A DNA stretch of 64,000 nucleotides from Desulfovibrio desulfuricans (GTDB lineage: Bacteria > Desulfobacterota > Desulfovibrionia > Desulfovibrionales > Desulfovibrionaceae), in assembly GCF_004801255.1 (NCBI RefSeq), contig NZ_CP036295.1, forward strand, positions 62,001 through 126,000, written 5' to 3'. The notes below the pieces were generated by a model that saw nothing but the letters and a program-made list of their open reading frames with translations, was not told where the DNA came from and did no database searches. A program made the translations under genes and the position numbers. Of this stretch, positions 56,985 through 63,187 are shown in pieces (position 1 is the first letter of the stretch; the number at the start of each line of letters is the position of its first letter).

Positions 56985-57221
56985 ATGGCTGACGACAAAG
57001 ACGTTGTTGTTGAATTTTTGAATAGCAAATCCGCGTCCAAGTCCAAGTTCTATTTCAAGGACTTCCTTGAATTGTTCCCCGATCGCGGTCCCCGCGACGT
57101 GAAGAAAGTTCTCACCAAGCTGGTGAACGAAGAAGTGCTGGAATTCTGGTCTTCCGGTTCCACCACCATGTACGGCCTGAAGGGCGCGGGCAAGCAGTCC
57201 GCCGCTGAAGGCGAAAATTAG
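56985..57221 (+). CDS. dsrD: Dissimilatory sulfite reductase-associated protein DsrD
   Basis: The 78-residue winged-helix protein is conserved in sulfate reducers and acts as an allosteric activator of DsrAB. AGGAG precedes the ATG 57 bases after dsrB. The sequence shows the helix-turn-helix-like core (FYFKDFLELFP, VKKVLTKLVNEE) and a strand with WSSGSTTMYGL. Third gene of the operon; the stem-loop element at 57268 follows. Confidence 0.95.
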   Translation: MADDKDVVVEFLNSKSASKSKFYFKDFLELFPDRGPRDVKKVLTKLVNEEVLEFWSSGSTTMYGLKGAGKQSAAEGEN

Positions 57222-57689
57222 TAGCGTAAGCACCGGCCCAGCGCCTGTTGCTTTGGGCTGCGCCAAAACGCGCTTTTTATTACGGTCGAGTACCTTGCGT
57301 ACACTCCCTGCATAAAAAGCGCGTCTTTGTTGTCGCTGCGGCAGGTACACGCCGATGCCTCCGGCACTTGCTGCCGGTTATGCTTGATTCACGTCGGGCC
57401 AGCAGGCCCCGGTCATGCCCGTACGGGCATGAGCATCCGCGAGGCGCGTCAGCCTTTGCGTGGTAGCTTCAGCAAGTTATGCCGCAACGCAAGTTGTGGC
57501 ATTTCTTGCTTTTGGGTGCTTGAGGGGTAATGCTTTGCCATGCCTGACGCAAAACGCGATTGCCTGGCGTCTGCGCTGGGCGGGTATGGCAGCATGCCGC
57601 GATGCGCCGCTACGCCTGCGCAGACGCAGATTTGCCGGGTCGGCATTACGAAGCGTCATCCATTTGGCCAAGACGCAGCAGGAGGCCGT
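57222..57689. other. Intergenic region after dsrD
   Basis: Holds the first copy of the conserved stem-loop element (57268-57324). The remaining sequence is GC-rich without a gene that has a ribosome binding site, until AGGAGG at 57680 before the AMMECR1 gene. Confidence 0.5.
57268..57324 (+). repeat. Conserved stem-loop element, copy 1
   Basis: ACGCGCTTTTTAT (57268-57280) and ATAAAAAGCGCGT (57312-57324) form a perfect 13-pair stem. The 31-base loop contains GTCGAGTACC...GCGTACACTCCCTGC, with an inner GAGTAC / GTAC-A-CTC helix. It lies 47 bases after dsrD and is followed by a T-rich stretch. Its loop is nearly identical to that of copy 2 at 59633. Confidence 0.7.
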
Positions 57690-58265
57690 ATGAGCACGTC
57701 GTTTACCCTGCCTGATGCAGAAAAAAAGTTTCTTTCACAGCAGGCCCGCACCTCCATTGAAGCGGAGTTGCTGGGAAAAAATGTTGCGGATATTCCTCGA
57801 CCGCCAGCGGCGGAATTTGCCCCGGGCAGCGCGCTGCACCGCAAGCTTGGGGCCTTTGTTACGTTGCACATCAGCGGCAATCTGCGTGGCTGCATAGGCA
57901 ATATTGTCGGGCGCGAACCGCTGTACGCCACAGTATGGCACATGGCCCAGGCTGCGGCCTTTGCCGATCCGCGTTTTCCCGCTCTGGGCCTGGCGGAGTG
58001 GCCGCGCGTCAACATGGAGATTTCCGTGCTGGATGAGCTGACGCCCTGCCCCGACGCGCAGGCAGTGGAAGTGGGCCGTCACGGGCTGGTGCTGCAGTAC
58101 GCCGGGCGCAGCGGCGTGTTTTTGCCTCAGGTTCCTGTGGAGCAGGGCTGGGACAGGCTGGCTTACCTGGACAACCTGTGCGGCAAGGCGGGCCTGCCCC
58201 CCGGTACGTGGAAACTGCCCGGCGCACAGCTCTTTTGGTACGAGGCCACGGTGTTCAAGGCCTAG
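57690..58265 (+). CDS. AMMECR1 domain protein (AmmeMemoRadiSam system protein A type)
   Basis: The ATG at 57690 follows AGGAGG by five bases; a longer frame from 57540 is rejected for lack of such a site. The 191-residue soluble protein is a full AMMECR1 domain with the invariant LRGCIG (65-70), HMAQAAAFADPRFP, EISVLDELTP, GLVLQ and FLPQVPVEQGWD motifs. In the AmmeMemoRadiSam system it partners with Memo and radical-SAM proteins, whose genes are not adjacent here. Exact role unknown. Confidence 0.88.
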   Translation: MSTSFTLPDAEKKFLSQQARTSIEAELLGKNVADIPRPPAAEFAPGSALHRKLGAFVTLHISGNLRGCIGNIVGREPLYATVWHMAQAAAFADPRFPALGLAEWPRVNMEISVLDELTPCPDAQAVEVGRHGLVLQYAGRSGVFLPQVPVEQGWDRLAYLDNLCGKAGLPPGTWKLPGAQLFWYEATVFKA

Positions 58266-58626
58266 CGTGCAGGCCATTGCAAACAAAAATATGCCCTACA
58301 CCTGCAACCATTGCTGGTATGGGCGCTTATTAAATGTCTTTCATTGTAAAACCAACGTCAAGAAGCATTTTATAAAGCTCAATGTGCGTTGTGTTGTCTA
58401 TGTTGTTGTTCTCGCAATTTTATTTTACCCCTTTTTTTACTTGTCTGGTTTCTTCGAAAAGCCCGGCAACGTAATTATGTTCGTAATCCTCTTCGCAGTT
58501 GAAGTGTGAATTTTACTTGGTCATGACCATTTTCCACTTAAGGCTAATAGTTAAAAACATTTGCTCTATATAAATTGTCGCTATTGGCTTTTTGACAAAT
58601 GCCTTGCTCTGGATTAGTTTACGTCA
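58266..58626. other. AT-rich stretch upstream of the FMN riboswitch
   Basis: AT-richer than the surrounding genes; holds only the possible small gene at 58291-58509 and presumably the ribB promoter. Confidence 0.4.
58291..58509 (+). CDS. Possible small membrane protein with N-terminal Cys motif
   Basis: A 72-residue frame starts MPYTCNHCWYGR, with a CxxC pair, then has one or two hydrophobic segments (about 33-50 and 60-72). The ribosome binding site is weak (no GGAG), and the frame is open further to a GTG at 58267. Low GC matches the local insert. It could be spurious. Confidence 0.33.
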   Translation: MPYTCNHCWYGRLLNVFHCKTNVKKHFIKLNVRCVVYVVVLAILFYPFFYLSGFFEKPGNVIMFVILFAVEV

Positions 58627-58767
58627 TTCTCAGGGCGGGGTGAGAGTCCCCACCGGCGGTGATGCGGCGGCCAGACGGCCCCGCCAGCCCGCGAGCGCCC
58701 AGTGTTTGGGGTCAGCAGATCCGGTGCGAATCCGGAGCCGACGGTTACAGTCCGGATGGAAGAGAAC
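58627..58767 (+). promoter_or_regulatory. FMN riboswitch (RFN element)
   Basis: The element starts TTCTCAGGGCGGGG, continues GAGAGTCCCCACCGGCGG, has GATCCGGTGCGAATCCGG and closes with GCCGACGGTTACAGTCCGGA and GAAGAGAA, the classic aptamer order. It precedes ribB by 118 bases. Confidence 0.95.
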
Positions 58768-58848
58768 GGTTTTATGCCGCGCGCAGCGGTGCGTCCTTTA
58801 TTTGAAGGCGCCCTTTGCCTTGCGGCCCGTCCACGCCCTGATGCACCA

Positions 58849-58880
58849 TCTCCCGGCCCGCGAGGCCGGAAACAGGAGAA
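58849..58880 (+). promoter_or_regulatory. Possible ribosome-binding-site sequestering hairpin of ribB
   Basis: CCGGCC (58853-58858) pairs with GGCCGG (58864-58869), and TCTC just before it can pair with GAGA (58876-58879) within the AGGAGA ribosome binding site. This suggests translational control by the upstream aptamer. Confidence 0.45.
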
Positions 58881-58884
58881 CGGA

Positions 58885-59556
58885 ATGCATCAGTCCTCAT
58901 TATCCCTTTCGTCATTCGGCACTTCTGAAGAGCGTGTGCGCGCTGCTCTGGCTTCGTTGAGCAAAGGCGGCGGCGTTTGCGTTGTGGATGACGAAAACCG
59001 GGAAAACGAAGGCGACCTCATTTTTAGCGCGCAGCACATCACCGTGCCGCAGATGGCCATGCTGATACGCCACTGCAGCGGCATTGTCTGCCTGTGCCTC
59101 ACCGACGAGCATGTGCAGCGGCTTGAGCTGCCCATGATGACGGAGCACAACACCAACACGCAGGGAACAGCCTTTACGGTCACCATTGAGGCGGCCACCG
59201 GCGTTACCACGGGTGTTTCCGCCGCTGACCGCGTGGCCACCATCAAGGCGGCCGCTGCGCCCTGCGCCAGACCTGCGGATTTGCGCCGCCCCGGTCATGT
59301 CTTCCCCCTGCGGGCGCGCCCCGGCGGCGTGCTTGAACGGCGCGGCCACACCGAGGCGACCGTTGATCTCATGCGTATGTCTGGTCTGGAGCCGTGCGGC
59401 GTGCTGTGCGAGCTGACTCTGGATGACGGCGAAATGGCCCGACTGCCCGAGGTGGCGGGCTTTGCCCGCGCCCACAACATGCCTTTGTGCAGTGTGGAGG
59501 ATATTGCGGCGTGGCGGTTGGCTATGGGTGATCTGCACCTCGCCGCCAGCGCATAA
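58885..59556 (+). CDS. ribB: 3,4-dihydroxy-2-butanone 4-phosphate synthase
   Basis: RibB turns ribulose 5-phosphate into the four-carbon unit of riboflavin. The ATG at 58885 has AGGAGA seven bases upstream; the longer frame would read through the riboswitch. The 223-residue monofunctional protein has the acidic loop [10 protein letters not shown] (35-44), [25 protein letters not shown] and GHTEATVDL motifs with all catalytic acids and the His. It resembles E. coli RibB closely and lacks the GTP cyclohydrolase II half common in fused enzymes. Control by the FMN riboswitch makes it responsive to flavin. Confidence 0.95.
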
Positions 59557-59632
59557 TTGATGGGCGCGCTGCAAGCGTCTTTTGCCGCGCGCGTCTTTTG
59601 CCCGCGCGTGTCTTTTGCCCGCTGACAGCGTC

Positions 59633-59697
59633 AAGCAGGGCTTTTTGCTCCAGTCGAGTACCATTGGCGTACACTCCCTGCGCAAAAAGCCCTGCTT
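59633..59697 (+). repeat. Conserved stem-loop element, copy 2
   Basis: AAGCAGGGCTTTTTGC (59633-59648) and GCAAAAAGCCCTGCTT (59682-59697) form a perfect 16-pair stem. The 33-base loop holds GTCGAGTACC...GGCGTACACTCCCTGC. It lies 77 bases after ribB and is followed by a short T-tract. GCTGAC (59621) and GTCAGC (59703) can extend the stem. Confidence 0.7.
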
Positions 59698-59801
59698 TTC
59701 TCGTCAGCGAACAAAATCCATCGCGCGGGAAGTCAAGGAGTCGGCTTTCTGGACGCAAAGCGACCCTTCCTCACAAGGCGCAGGAAGTCTGGTCTTCATG
59801 T

Positions 59802-59844
59802 AAAACAATAGCCCGGTTCATCATCTGAACCGGGCTATTGTTTT
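59802..59844. terminator. Bidirectional terminator, perfect 19-pair stem
   Basis: AAAACAATAGCCCGGTTCA pairs perfectly with its complement around a 5-base loop. T-runs exist on both strands; it separates ribB from the convergent acetyltransferase gene. Confidence 0.9.
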
Positions 59845-59860: not shown

Positions 59861-60493
59861 TTAGCCGAAGTATTCGTGGGGAGACTCGAGGACTTGAGTA
59901 AAGAGCTTATAAAATTCAGCCAGATGTATTCCGTCAATGAAGCTGTGGAGCGCTTCGATTGACACGGTGATGTTGCCTGAGGAATCAATTTTGCCAAAAA
60001 GGAATCTGGGTACAGTGTCGACCCAAGGGTCTCCCCACGGGTTGGTTGCTGACAGTATGGGGATATCTGGCACGCAGCTAAAGTAGATTAGGCTCTGGGC
60101 GTCGCCGCCCTCGGGATAAAGGGTTGGGGCCTGGTCGGCAACCGTCCGTGCCGCGGTGATGTTGCTGCTGAATGCCGAAAATTTTTTATCAAATTTTGCG
60201 ACGCAATTGCAGTGCAGCGCTCTGCCCTTGGGGATGTAGGTAAACGCTGCATCAATGCTGTCAAATTCCGCAGGGCGCAGATTAACGATTCTTTGTCTGA
60301 AGCCAGCGACGCTATTGGCGGCGAGCATGGCGGCAAAATAGATGCAATCTGTAAATCTAAAGCCATGCTGCTTTTTTACTACGCATAATTGGGCAACATT
60401 TGCCGAAAAAGAAACACTGAAGCACGGATTTTTACGAGACTGAAAAAAATTAAAGTGTTCATTTCTTTCCCACGAATCATCAAGGTATTTCAT
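59861..60493 (-). CDS. Chloramphenicol acetyltransferase-like protein
   Basis: The 210-residue protein matches the CatA fold. The N-terminal segment is FSVSFSANVAQL. FTDCIYFAAMLAANSVAGFRQRI corresponds to the family helix before RxRI. The catalytic motif is HSFIDGIH (His183, Asp187; the family form is HHxxxDGxH, the first His here replaced by Leu). AGGA precedes the ATG. Base composition is clearly AT-richer than neighbouring genes, which suggests lateral transfer. Whether it inactivates chloramphenicol or acetylates something else cannot be told; many relatives are inactive toward the drug. Confidence 0.82.
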   Translation of the reverse strand: MKYLDDSWERNEHFNFFQSRKNPCFSVSFSANVAQLCVVKKQHGFRFTDCIYFAAMLAANSVAGFRQRIVNLRPAEFDSIDAAFTYIPKGRALHCNCVAKFDKKFSAFSSNITAARTVADQAPTLYPEGGDAQSLIYFSCVPDIPILSATNPWGDPWVDTVPRFLFGKIDSSGNITVSIEALHSFIDGIHLAEFYKLFTQVLESPHEYFG

Positions 60494-60638: not shown

Positions 60639-62879
60639 CTACTCAACCGGCGCGAGGCGTTGGGCCAGCCTGGTATAGCGCTTGCGGGTCTTGTTGTTGT
60701 TTACGGCCATTTTAAGGGCGCGGGATTCGCCCACGAGGATGACCAGCTGCTTGCCGCGCGTAACGCCCGTGTAGAGGAGGTTGCGCTGCAGCAGCACATA
60801 GTGCTGCATCATGATGGGTATGACCACGGCGGGGTATTCCGACCCCTGCGATTTATGGATGGAGATGGCGTAGGCGGGCGCTATTTCGTCCAGTTCGTCA
60901 AATTCGTAGGGCACGACGCGCTCGTCAAAGGTGATGCTGAGAGTGCGCTCGTGCACGTCCATAAAGCTGATGCGGCCCATGTCGCCGTTAAAAACGTCCT
61001 TGTCGTAGTTGTTGCGTATCTGCATGACCTTGTCGTGCAGGCGAAAGCAACGGTCGCCACGGCGCACTTCTATGCCGTGGGGGTTCAGGGCTTCCTGCAG
61101 GCAGGCGTTCATGCGGCCGGCGCCCACAGCGCCCTTGTGCATGGGCGTAAGCACCTGAATATCGTCTACGGGGTCAAGGTTGAAGCGGCGCGGAATGTGG
61201 TTGCGCACCAGGTCCACAATAAGCTCGGCGGCTTTTTCGGCGTCGTTCTGGTGGATAAAGTAAAAGTCCGAGAGCCGTTCCTTGCTCGATTCCAGCGAGG
61301 GAATTTCGCCCCGGTTGATGAGGTGGGCGTTGCAGATGATTTCGCTTTCCGCTGACTGGCGGAAGATTTCGGTCAGCTCGACAACGGGCACAACGCCGGA
61401 GCTGATGATGTCCGAAAGCACGTTGCCGGGGCCCACCGAGGGCAGCTGGTGCACGTCGCCCACGAGCACAAGGGTAGCGCCCAGCGGCACGGCCTTGAGC
61501 AGGTGGTAAAAAAGCAGGGTGTCCATCATGGAGGCTTCGTCCACCACCAGCAGGCCGCAGGCGAGGGGGTTGTCCTCGTTGCGGGCAAAGCCGTCTTCCT
61601 TGGGGCTGTATTCGAGCAGGCGGTGGATTGTGCGCGACTCGCGGCCCGATGTTTCGGACATGCGCTTGGCGGCGCGGCCTGTAGGCGCTGCCAGCAATAT
61701 GCGGGCGCGCACCTCGCCAAAAAGCTTGATGATGGCGTTGATGATGGTTGTCTTGCCCGTGCCGGGGCCGCCGGTAAGCACCATCAGCTTGCTGCGGGCG
61801 GCGGTGCGCACGGCTTCGAGTTGCTCGGGCGCGAGCGAGATGTTGAGCTCGCCCACCACCTTGTCCACCAGGGCGTCAGGCTTTTCAAAACGCACGGATT
61901 TGGGCGAGCGCAAAAGACGCTGGATGTAGAAAGCGGTCTTGGATTCGCAATGGTGGTAGCGGCGCAGGTAAACGCCCGTTTCGCCTGAGGCGTCGGGCAT
62001 GTCCAGCTCTTCGCGTACGATGCGCTCGTCGCTTTCAAGGGCCGCGAGGGCGTCCTCCACCAGGGCTTCGTCCACGCCCAGCTGAGCGCAGACGGCCTCG
62101 GTCAGTTCGGCCTGCGGCAGGTAGACGTTGCCGTCGTCGGTGGACTTTTGCAGCACGTAGAGCGTGCCCGCCTGAATGCGCAGGGGGTTGTCGTGCTCAA
62201 AACCGAGCTTGGCGGCGGCCGCGTCGGCGGTGACAAAGCCGATGCCGTGGATGTCCATGGCGAGGCGATAGGGGTTTTCGCGCACGATGGCGAGGGCCTC
62301 AGCCCCGTAGGCGCGATAGATGCGTACGGCGTAGGCCGGAGTAATGCCGTGGGGCTGCAAAAAGAGCAGCAGATCGCGCATGCCCCGGTGTTCCGCCCAC
62401 GAAGTGCGGATGCGGTCAAGGCTCTTGCTGCCTACGCCGCGTACCTTGAGCAGGCGTTCGGGCTCCTCGTCGAGGATGCGGATGGTGTCTGTGCCAAACG
62501 TTTCGACAATGCGTCCGGCCATCTCTTCGCCAACGCCCTTGATGAGCCCTGAGGCGAGATAAAGGCGAAGTCCCTCGCTGGTGGCGGGGAGAATTTCTTC
62601 GGAGTTCTGAAACTCGATCTGACGGCCAAACCGGGGGTTGTTGACCCAGCGCCCGGAAATTTTGAGCTGTACGCCAGCCTGGGGGCTGACCATATGCCCG
62701 ATGCACGAAACCGGGTCGCGCGGGCGGGTAAGGCCCGCGTTGCCGCCGCCGCTGCTGACGCTGGCGGGCAGTAGGCGCAGTACGGTGTAGCCGTTTTCTT
62801 CGTTGTGAAAAACGACGCGCTCAACAGTGCCTGTAAGTTCAACGGCGTCAGGATGCTGCAAAAGGGGCAGGTTGTTCAT
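60639..62879 (-). CDS. recD2: RecD2-type ATP-dependent DNA helicase
   Basis: The ATG at 62879 overlaps the stop of the upstream gene (ATGA). The 746-residue protein is a superfamily 1B 5'-3' helicase. It has an N-terminal OB-like domain (ELTGTVERVVF), tandem helix-hairpin-helix motifs (GLIKGVGEEMAGRIV, KVRGVGSKSLDRI) that mark RecD2 and are missing in RecBCD-type RecD, Walker A GGPGTGKT (370-377), VVDEASMMD and QVLTPMHKGAVG, and a C-terminal HKSQGSEYPAVV motif. It acts in DNA repair without RecBC. Confidence 0.94.
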   Translation of the reverse strand: MNNLPLLQHPDAVELTGTVERVVFHNEENGYTVLRLLPASVSSGGGNAGLTRPRDPVSCIGHMVSPQAGVQLKISGRWVNNPRFGRQIEFQNSEEILPATSEGLRLYLASGLIKGVGEEMAGRIVETFGTDTIRILDEEPERLLKVRGVGSKSLDRIRTSWAEHRGMRDLLLFLQPHGITPAYAVRIYRAYGAEALAIVRENPYRLAMDIHGIGFVTADAAAAKLGFEHDNPLRIQAGTLYVLQKSTDDGNVYLPQAELTEAVCAQLGVDEALVEDALAALESDERIVREELDMPDASGETGVYLRRYHHCESKTAFYIQRLLRSPKSVRFEKPDALVDKVVGELNISLAPEQLEAVRTAARSKLMVLTGGPGTGKTTIINAIIKLFGEVRARILLAAPTGRAAKRMSETSGRESRTIHRLLEYSPKEDGFARNEDNPLACGLLVVDEASMMDTLLFYHLLKAVPLGATLVLVGDVHQLPSVGPGNVLSDIISSGVVPVVELTEIFRQSAESEIICNAHLINRGEIPSLESSKERLSDFYFIHQNDAEKAAELIVDLVRNHIPRRFNLDPVDDIQVLTPMHKGAVGAGRMNACLQEALNPHGIEVRRGDRCFRLHDKVMQIRNNYDKDVFNGDMGRISFMDVHERTLSITFDERVVPYEFDELDEIAPAYAISIHKSQGSEYPAVVIPIMMQHYVLLQRNLLYTGVTRGKQLVILVGESRALKMAVNNNKTRKRYTRLAQRLAPVE

Positions 62880-63187
62880 GGGCGCGGATTGCTCTTGTTG
62901 GCGGGGCTTGCGGCGGCCTTGCGCTGGCGCGACCACCAGAACCAGTTGCACTGTTCGTACGGCAGCTGGGGGTTTTGGGCCTGGGCCACGGCGCAGCAAA
63001 ACACGTCCAGGCAGCATATATCAACGGCTTGCCCCTTGATGCGGCACAGGTCGTTGTACAGGGCCTGCGGGTCGCGGCGGGCCAGGTCGCGCACATCTGC
63101 AACCCCAAGCAGGCGCAGGTCTTCAAGTGTGGCCGGGCCTACGGAGCGCAGCGCGCCAAGCGGGCGGGCGTCCGTATTTTTGTTCAC
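62876..63187 (-). CDS. Cdd1-like helix-hairpin-helix protein
   Basis: GTG start at 63187 overlapping the aroC stop (GTGA), and a stop overlapping recD2. The 103-residue protein has a helix-hairpin-helix core (LRSVGPATLEDLRLLGVADVRDL), then DPQALYNDLCRIKGQAVD and a Cys-rich CCLDVFCCAV stretch. The overall pattern is that of the Cdd1 (pathogenicity locus / mitomycin resistance) family of small DNA-binding-like proteins. Function unproven; coupling with a repair helicase fits a DNA role. Confidence 0.8.
   Translation of the reverse strand: MNKNTDARPLGALRSVGPATLEDLRLLGVADVRDLARRDPQALYNDLCRIKGQAVDICCLDVFCCAVAQAQNPQLPYEQCNWFWWSRQRKAAASPANKSNPRP

Follow-up and report, generated by a model that had tools for sequence, protein, structure and literature searches.

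The 64,000-nt stretch of Desulfovibrio desulfuricans DNA analyzed here (contig NZ_CP036295.1, positions 62,001–126,000; hereafter the window) carries two similar stem-loops, one downstream of dsrD and one downstream of ribB, which are two copies of a repeated hairpin element of about 115–180 nt. The element is assigned as a hairpin-type miniature inverted-repeat transposable element (MITE) of the superfamily of the enterobacterial repetitive intergenic consensus (ERIC), and is neither a terminator nor ERIC itself. In full, it is probably a non-autonomous MITE-like hairpin that is distantly related to ERIC through a common superfamily and that would act on the upstream mRNA as a sense hairpin in the 3′ untranslated region (3′ UTR). 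This reading is carried by the repeat nature of the element, the covariation of its stems, its bias in gene sense and replication strand, the terminal inverted repeats (TIRs) and TA anatomy in one congener, and the covariance models by which the family and ERIC find each other's copies.

Both stem-loops were paired as described in the original prediction, which had been made from the letters of the window, with c-stems of 13 bp in copy 1 and 16 bp in copy 2, the same loop core in both, and distances of 47 and 77 nt from the last bases of the dsrD and ribB reading frames, respectively. Exact matches to GTACACTCCCTGC in the window were confined to these two sites. The strand is not decided by folding alone, because the minus strand (z-scores of −5.9 and −4.7 for copies 1 and 2) folds equally well as or better than the plus strand (−3.5 and −5.7). 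Two features had been missed in the prediction: the hairpins are the cores of a larger element that extends outward on both sides, and besides the tip there is a further internal loop of equal conservation. The outer stem pairs 59601–59608 with 59722–59729 in copy 2, and is degenerate in copy 1.

The element was sought with a sequence pattern and with covariance models. The pattern GAGTACN{2,10}GTACACTCCCTGC gave three matches in the own genome and was present in 8 of 61 relatives, all of the same genus, and a reversed control pattern gave none in any genome. A covariance model built from 20 copies (R1), with compensatory changes at 17 of 31 pairs, detected 40 copies in the own genome at E ≤ 4.5e-8, leaving one match at E 0.137 uncounted, and found the element in 25 of the 61 genus genomes. 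With a second model from 82 copies (R2), 89 of 297 genomes of the order, belonging to 19 of 55 genera, were positive, as were 61 of 297 genomes (44 of 198 genera) in a phylum-wide draw; these order and phylum scans scored no more than 12 candidates per genome, so copy numbers there are floors, and the E-values rest on a shortened calibration. Thus, the covariance-model search that had been proposed along with the prediction returned further copies in relatives, with a constant loop and covarying stems. The Rfam comparison proposed with it placed neither window copy in a family at the gathering score. At that cut-off the flavin mononucleotide (FMN) riboswitch alone was matched in the window and nothing was matched at the element in 20 loci, while relaxed thresholds gave chance-level matches only on the window hairpins.

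Copies also occur in tandem, with up to four copies per array in the own genome and spacers without called genes. The own-genome arrays L090, L091, L092 and L093 have fixed spacers, with periods of about 146, 355, and 386 bp. At L007, L020, and L026 (genomes G007 and G004), the hairpin is interrupted or abutted by another repeat, which starts with GCTCCAGCCGTTGCGACGAAGGAAGC or a similar sequence. Carriage by phages or plasmids was considered and dropped, as only one viral contig held the exact core, and blastn gave no match of copy 1 in phages or of locus L104 in plasmids.

From the outside in, the element consists of terminal inverted repeats, in many copies next to TA, then a short b-stem and the loop GCGTC/TTCCTTG, followed by the c-stem, the other internal loop (GGTC/CACTCCC), and the helix of the tip, in which one A is bulged. 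In an alignment of 80 distinct copies (A5), 93.6% of the pair cells held standard pairs, vs. 39–55% when the partners were slid, and both sides had changed in some row for 29 of the 31 pairs; double-changed cells numbered 529, vs. a mean of 151 in shuffles and 57–81 when slid. Comparable values were obtained in A6, an alignment of 33 matches from other genera and families (24 of them from outside the family members of the genus-level training set, and two antisense or secondary), with 92.6% paired vs. 34–51% slid, and 198 double-changed cells vs. 53 in shuffles and 20–48 when slid; both alignments were fitted to the model, which favors pairing. The unpaired letters are constant, namely GCGUC(A) facing UUCCUUG and, around the GUAC tip, GGUC facing CACUCCC. 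The stem letters are free provided they pair, and the loop letters are kept. The covariation in A5, together with the copies in relatives, supports the predicted structured element with a covarying stem. One own-genome subgroup carries an alternative tip, GCTCACGTAC...GTACGCTGCGC, with GCGTC/CCTTG kept; at L094, and likely at L095 and L096, copies with this tip lie downstream of an rRNA operon (large-subunit and 5S rRNA in L094). In addition, near-identical copies at L010, L013, L015, L018, L022, and L073 (genomes G007, G004, and G062) differ in one 10-bp stem segment that is swapped wholesale on both arms and is always paired, an exchange that could reflect template-switch repair within the palindrome.

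The element lies mostly behind genes and in their sense. The 40 own-genome copies occupy 21 sites, of which 17 are behind a co-oriented protein gene, one is behind a 5S rRNA gene and one is not; the remaining sites, L095 and L096, have no called gene upstream and their sense is undecided. Genes were called by a codon-usage script, by which small genes may be wrong. Among 96 copies from other genomes, a co-oriented stop codon lay within 40 nt of the model start in 54, and an opposing one within 40 nt of the model end in 6, while copies between two same-direction genes were 45 sense vs. 9 antisense (binomial p of 1e-10 and 7e-7, respectively, uncorrected for relatedness). These 96 do not include L066, L068–L072, L080, L081, L084, L085, L186, and L201 (repeats, short loci, or weak matches), L148, whose flanks are the same as those of L147, or the pattern loci L001–L030. 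Many copies have a stop codon right at the element end, and distances to the model start peak at 17–20 nt. Among 18 recently spread copies in the congener G079, the tandem contexts were 5 sense and 5 antisense (old vs. young, Fisher p 0.03). Because the young copies are even and the older ones mostly sense, insertion seems not to be oriented and survival seems to be, as these small numbers suggest.

At dsrD, the terminator ATGCCGCAAC...GTTGTGGCAT(TTCTTG), which is the hairpin at 57479–57502 in the window, was found in 11 of 24 listed loci, whereas, the window aside, the element followed dsrD at one (L224) of 80 named loci, some of which end soon after dsrD; the dsrD flanks of other species were not alignable by eye. 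Copy 1 thus sits between the dsrD stop codon and the operon's own terminator, which is kept elsewhere without the element; this supports the earlier proposal that the stem-loops are not ordinary terminators. As to the proposed 3′ regulatory element, position and sense orientation fit, and the regulatory function itself is putative.

ERIC has been known since 1990–91, and the link to it emerged from a negative control. When R2 was run on 50 kb of Escherichia coli K-12, one match was obtained in the metR–metE region (51.3 bits, E 2e-11). Its alignment keeps in order UCUUUU, UGCGU, CGGUC, the UAC/GUA tip, UCCC, CCUU, and AAAAUCC, and the sequence has near-matches to the ERIC primers at 16 and 17 of 22 bases (ERIC1R and ERIC2 as given in a passage of PMC3696847). 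Ten further ERIC copies were chosen from enterobacterial plasmids by similarity to the K-12 copy, giving a total of 11, and R2 found five of them (the K-12 copy and four of the ten) with no other match in 53,867 bases. In the opposite direction, a model from the 11 ERICs alone (R3) was run on 313,056 bases from family loci, with 14 matches at E ≤ 0.1, and on 800,000 bases sampled from G000 and G165, with one. Each of the 15 was a copy found earlier by R1 or R2, in the same orientation and with almost identical ends. The best R3 matches were the own-genome copies with the GCTCACGTAC...GTACGCTGCGC tip. The ERIC stems covary too (24 cells vs. 5 in shuffles, 11 copies).

Like the ERIC/IRU/RU-1 repeats, the element is a single long intergenic hairpin with covarying stems, and its parts follow the same order: b-stem, TGCG(T) loop opposite CCTT(CC), c-stem, and GTC...TAC tip...GTA...CTCC. 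Passages of PMC2229807 and PMC2759123 also describe TA at the ends of ERIC and a TA duplication. In contrast to ERIC, the Desulfovibrio-side family has no conserved primer sites, its stems are sequence-free and differ by lineage, and its ends vary by genome; it forms tandem arrays, lives in a different host phylum, and is mostly found behind stop codons in gene sense with a leading-strand bias. ERIC families in E. coli, Yersinia pestis, and Vibrio cholerae, the last predicted not to fold, are described in part of PMC2267715. What we propose to define an ERIC superfamily, that is, mutual model matches, a near full-length hairpin, conserved internal loops, and covarying stems, is found in this family. 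Judged by the primer cores, the family is not ERIC in the strict sense. The model comparisons point to homology of the structured element, with lower certainty than the family itself.

It appears unlikely that the ERIC match reflects convergence between hairpin MITEs of two unrelated families whose loops are alike. Sequence identity is low, both are long hairpins with a similar AT/GC layout, and the shortened calibration behind the E-values would also leave room for convergence; however, the match is two-way, strand-correct and end-to-end, the DNA searched gave no further match at the thresholds applied, and G165 carries a tip of intermediate form, CGGTCACGTAC...GTACGCTCCC.

That the element is mobile, as the original prediction had suggested in calling it a small mobile repeat, is borne out by the 40 own-genome copies, the 25 of 61 congeners, and a recently spread form in G079. 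This genome holds 120 copies, 23 of them with an identical score, and a 115-base core was identical in all 18 fetched loci, the outer flanks differing. The shared part is bounded by the inverted repeats TAGGG(C/T)CTGTTAAC...GTTAACAG(A/G)CCCTA, the recently spread form having the inverted ends TAGGGYCTGTTAAC..., and the TA flanks are clear in the young form, with 1 of the 18 loci (L145) lacking TA. G079 also holds an 815-bp insertion sequence (IS) with related ends, whose two overlapping open reading frames (ORFs) carry DUF4096 and DDE_Tnp_1 domains, and which is of the IS5/IS427 type. The recent form resembles MITEs derived from such elements in its TA-flanked ends, which are like those of a resident IS. 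Unlike them, the hairpin has other inverted ends in other genomes, next to TA in many copies as judged by eye, and no association with DUF4096.

Several observations weigh against the reading as a mobile relative of ERIC. Eight of the 14 R3 matches come from two groups of near-identical own-genome copies, and neither window copy was matched by R3 at E ≤ 0.1. A strict-filter phylum scan with R3, scoring 12 candidates per genome, was positive in 3 of 297 genomes, two of which were also R2-positive; the own genome was not among the three, although R3 finds copies from it once the loci are supplied. The ERIC primers are not conserved in the 82 copies, with best matches of 14 and 13 of 22 bases vs. 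16–22 in the 11 ERICs. Further, ERIC lies between divergent genes and not behind a stop codon at metR–metE of K-12 and Enterobacter and at ilvY–ilvC of Klebsiella. On the side of mobility, a TA-flanked end is not evident in either window copy, and neither an IS5-type (DUF4096) nor a Y1 (Y1_Tnp) transposase was matched in the own genome. Across the 61 genomes both domains are unassociated with the element (14/25 element-bearing vs. 19/36 other genomes for DUF4096; 12/25 vs. 23/36 for Y1_Tnp).

An IS5-type transposase as the general mover was rejected for want of association and retained for the G079 form alone. Mobilization by RAYT/IS200 (RAYT, the tyrosine transposase associated with repetitive extragenic palindromes, REPs) was rejected, as the own genome lacks Y1_Tnp and the distribution of this domain does not follow that of the element. 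Integron attC sites, considered because of the tandem arrays, were dropped by inspection rather than by an attC- or integrase-directed search, the conserved parts being the tip and inner loops and not the ends, and the spacers being free of called genes.

The element also leans to one replication strand. The origin and terminus were set from GC skew alone in four single-contig genomes, with 19 or 20 of 20 samples in agreement. The sampled genes of these genomes showed little or no leading-strand lean, and the element copies leaned to the leading strand: 19 of 20 sites vs. 121 of 275 genes in G000 (p 2e-6), 42 of 57 copies vs. 137 of 264 genes in G165 (p 0.0013), 49 of 83 vs. 115 of 269 in G145 (p 0.0037), and 67 of 98 vs. 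137 of 274 in G079 (p 0.00035). The last count was made without the 16 weakest of the 120 copies, and with all of them entered it was 77 of 111 vs. 137 of 274; the other counts used 59 of 93 copies in G165 and 91 of 141 in G145. The young G079 copies leaned about like the rest (15/23 vs. 69/97, p 0.62). With DNA folding parameters, 70 of 80 distinct copies had the weaker hairpin on the top strand, and the strand bias could stem from this. The bias is unexplained by an RNA role and leaves room for a role at the DNA level.

One such role would be that of a single-stranded DNA element, moved or recognized as a hairpin on the lagging-strand template like IS200/IS605, RAYT/REP, or attC, with the loops as DNA marks and the position behind genes as tolerated insertion. 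The leading-strand lean in excess of that of genes in all four genomes, and a structure kept while the sequence drifts, as in hairpins read as single strands, would be expected of such an element. We nevertheless consider it doubtful, given that Y1_Tnp is absent not only from the own genome but also from eight further element-bearing genomes (G004, G007, G011, G017, G023, G026, G062, and G068), that the recent G079 form with its TIRs and TA flanks looks like a DDE element, that the link to a stop codon on the 5′ side is stronger than the strand bias, and that the strand counts cover part of the copies in G165 and G145.

Still less probable is that selection against unstable palindromes explains the pattern without any RNA function, the strand with the weaker hairpin being kept on the lagging-strand template and the loops breaking a lethal perfect palindrome. 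The less stable folding of the top strand would agree with this, but it leaves the conserved loop letters and the gene-sense position at stop codons unexplained, and the recent G079 copies lean about the same as the others. Finally, plain intrinsic terminators that share a loop by chance can be practically dismissed, because, despite the location behind genes and the TTTT that directly follows the c-stem of copy 2, it is the conserved UUCCUUG and no U tract that stands 3′ of the stem across A5, ordinary terminators lie further downstream and are conserved without the element, and the own-genome arrays hold up to four copies in tandem. Consistently, a terminator scan that allowed loops of 3–8 gave no call at either window copy.

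The element was then compared with other known repeats. MITEs with TIRs and TA are known in bacteria, and passages of PMC2229807 describe the Correia/NEMIS, RUP, and YPAL repeats, like the present element, as TA-flanked MITEs of 100–200 bp with TIRs that form RNA hairpins, those of NEMIS being proposed RNase III substrates. They are known from single genera or families, and the comparison with them was by description only. CGTC- and GTAG-tagged REPs are also palindromes located mostly downstream of genes, with an unpaired CGTC 5′ of the hairpin (here TGCGTCA). Part of PMC3733652 gives CGTC-REPs stems of 8–9 bp, loops of 4–5 bases, and a CCA tail, whereas the c-stems here are of about 9–16 bp and lie inside two further stems; identity with them was rejected, since the stems and tails of A5 do not fit the 8–9 bp stem, the CGTC tag, and the CCA tail. 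The string 'Desulf' does not occur in the main text of PMC3733652. In the portions covered of PMC2229807, PMC2267715, PMC2759123, PMC3733652, PMC2700814, PMC3543383, PMC6006769, and PMC12306157, the hairpin family is not described and ERIC is not placed beyond the gamma-proteobacteria. No link of ERIC or of a named repeat to the Desulfovibrio hairpins was found in the literature within this scope, which did not extend to subscription work or to the supplements of PMC2700814 and PMC3543383 on Geobacter/Pelobacter multicopy sequences.

Table 1. The two element copies and adjoining features in the window.
Feature	Position	Strand	Basis
Copy 1, dsrD 3′ region	57243..57355	+	R1 match, 73.6 bits; copy 1 itself is part of the R1 training set
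Copy 1 c-stem 57268–57280/57312–57324, enclosing the conserved tip GGTCGAGTAC...GTACACTCCCTGC	57268..57324	+	Pairing, fold
Copy 2 including outer stem, ribB 3′ region	59601..59729	+	R1 match 59611–59726, 99.2 bits
Copy 2 b-stem 59620–59626/59703–59709	59620..59709	+	Pairing, alignment
Copy 2 conserved internal loop, AGCGTC 59627–59632 opposite TTCTC 59698–59702	within 59620..59709	+	Alignment
Copy 2 c-stem 59633–59648/59682–59697 and conserved tip	59633..59697	+	Pairing, fold
dsrD, upstream of copy 1	56985..57221	+	ORF, Pfam DsrD
ribB (DHBP synthase), upstream of copy 2	58885..59556	+	ORF, Pfam DHBP_synthase
Terminator-like hairpin ATGCCGCAAC...GTTGTGGCAT + TTCTTGCTTT	57479..57502	+	Terminator scan; kept behind dsrD in other species
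Long hairpin AAAACAATAGCCCGGTTCA...TGAACCGGGCTATTGTTTT	59802..59844	.	By eye; no call there by a simple terminator scan

The long hairpin at 59802–59844, as read by eye, would be a bidirectional terminator that separates ribB from the opposing gene, with copy 2 before it. The opposing gene (59861–60493, minus strand), convergent with ribB, belongs to the chloramphenicol acetyltransferase fold family (PF00302, 36.5 bits), and is adjoined by a RecD2-type helicase gene (60639–63017, minus strand). Upstream of ribB, the FMN riboswitch lies at 58622–58771 on the plus strand (Rfam RF00050, 110 bits).

If the element is a MITE-like hairpin acting in 3′ UTRs, putative transposases, supplied in trans, would move it by way of the particular ends found in each lineage, and it would insert at TA, often the TA of a TAG or TAA stop codon. 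Lasting copies would be those that lie right after the stop codon, in the sense of the upstream gene and before an ordinary terminator, and because it is located in sense between stop and terminator, the element would be transcribed with that gene and form a hairpin in the 3′ UTR. Such a sense RNA hairpin, which has two constant loops, may be bound by a host factor or cut, and this would alter the stability or processing of the upstream mRNA, by analogy with ERIC in Yersinia, whose RNA affects upstream transcripts in an orientation-dependent manner as described in part of PMC2229807. Antisense copies would be lost, as they would give no such effect or do harm.

The sulfate-reducer family is far more diverse in sequence than ERIC and offers what has been missing there: stem covariation from which the structure can be established, two constant loops, and a recently moving form with matching IS ends. 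Its orientation statistics separate RNA from DNA hypotheses, and it yields an annotation model for a repeat that Rfam does not cover and that, judging from 61 of 297 genomes, is common in the phylum. More broadly, and as a tentative but quite conceivable view, ERIC may be a local offshoot of an ancient hairpin element that is defined by its structure and occurs in two phyla or more. In this view, the stems would be free as long as they pair and the two loops would serve as a recognition code for a host factor, the ends would be swapped so that different transposases can be used, and the copies that persist would be those in gene sense within leading-strand 3′ UTRs, acting there as RNA.

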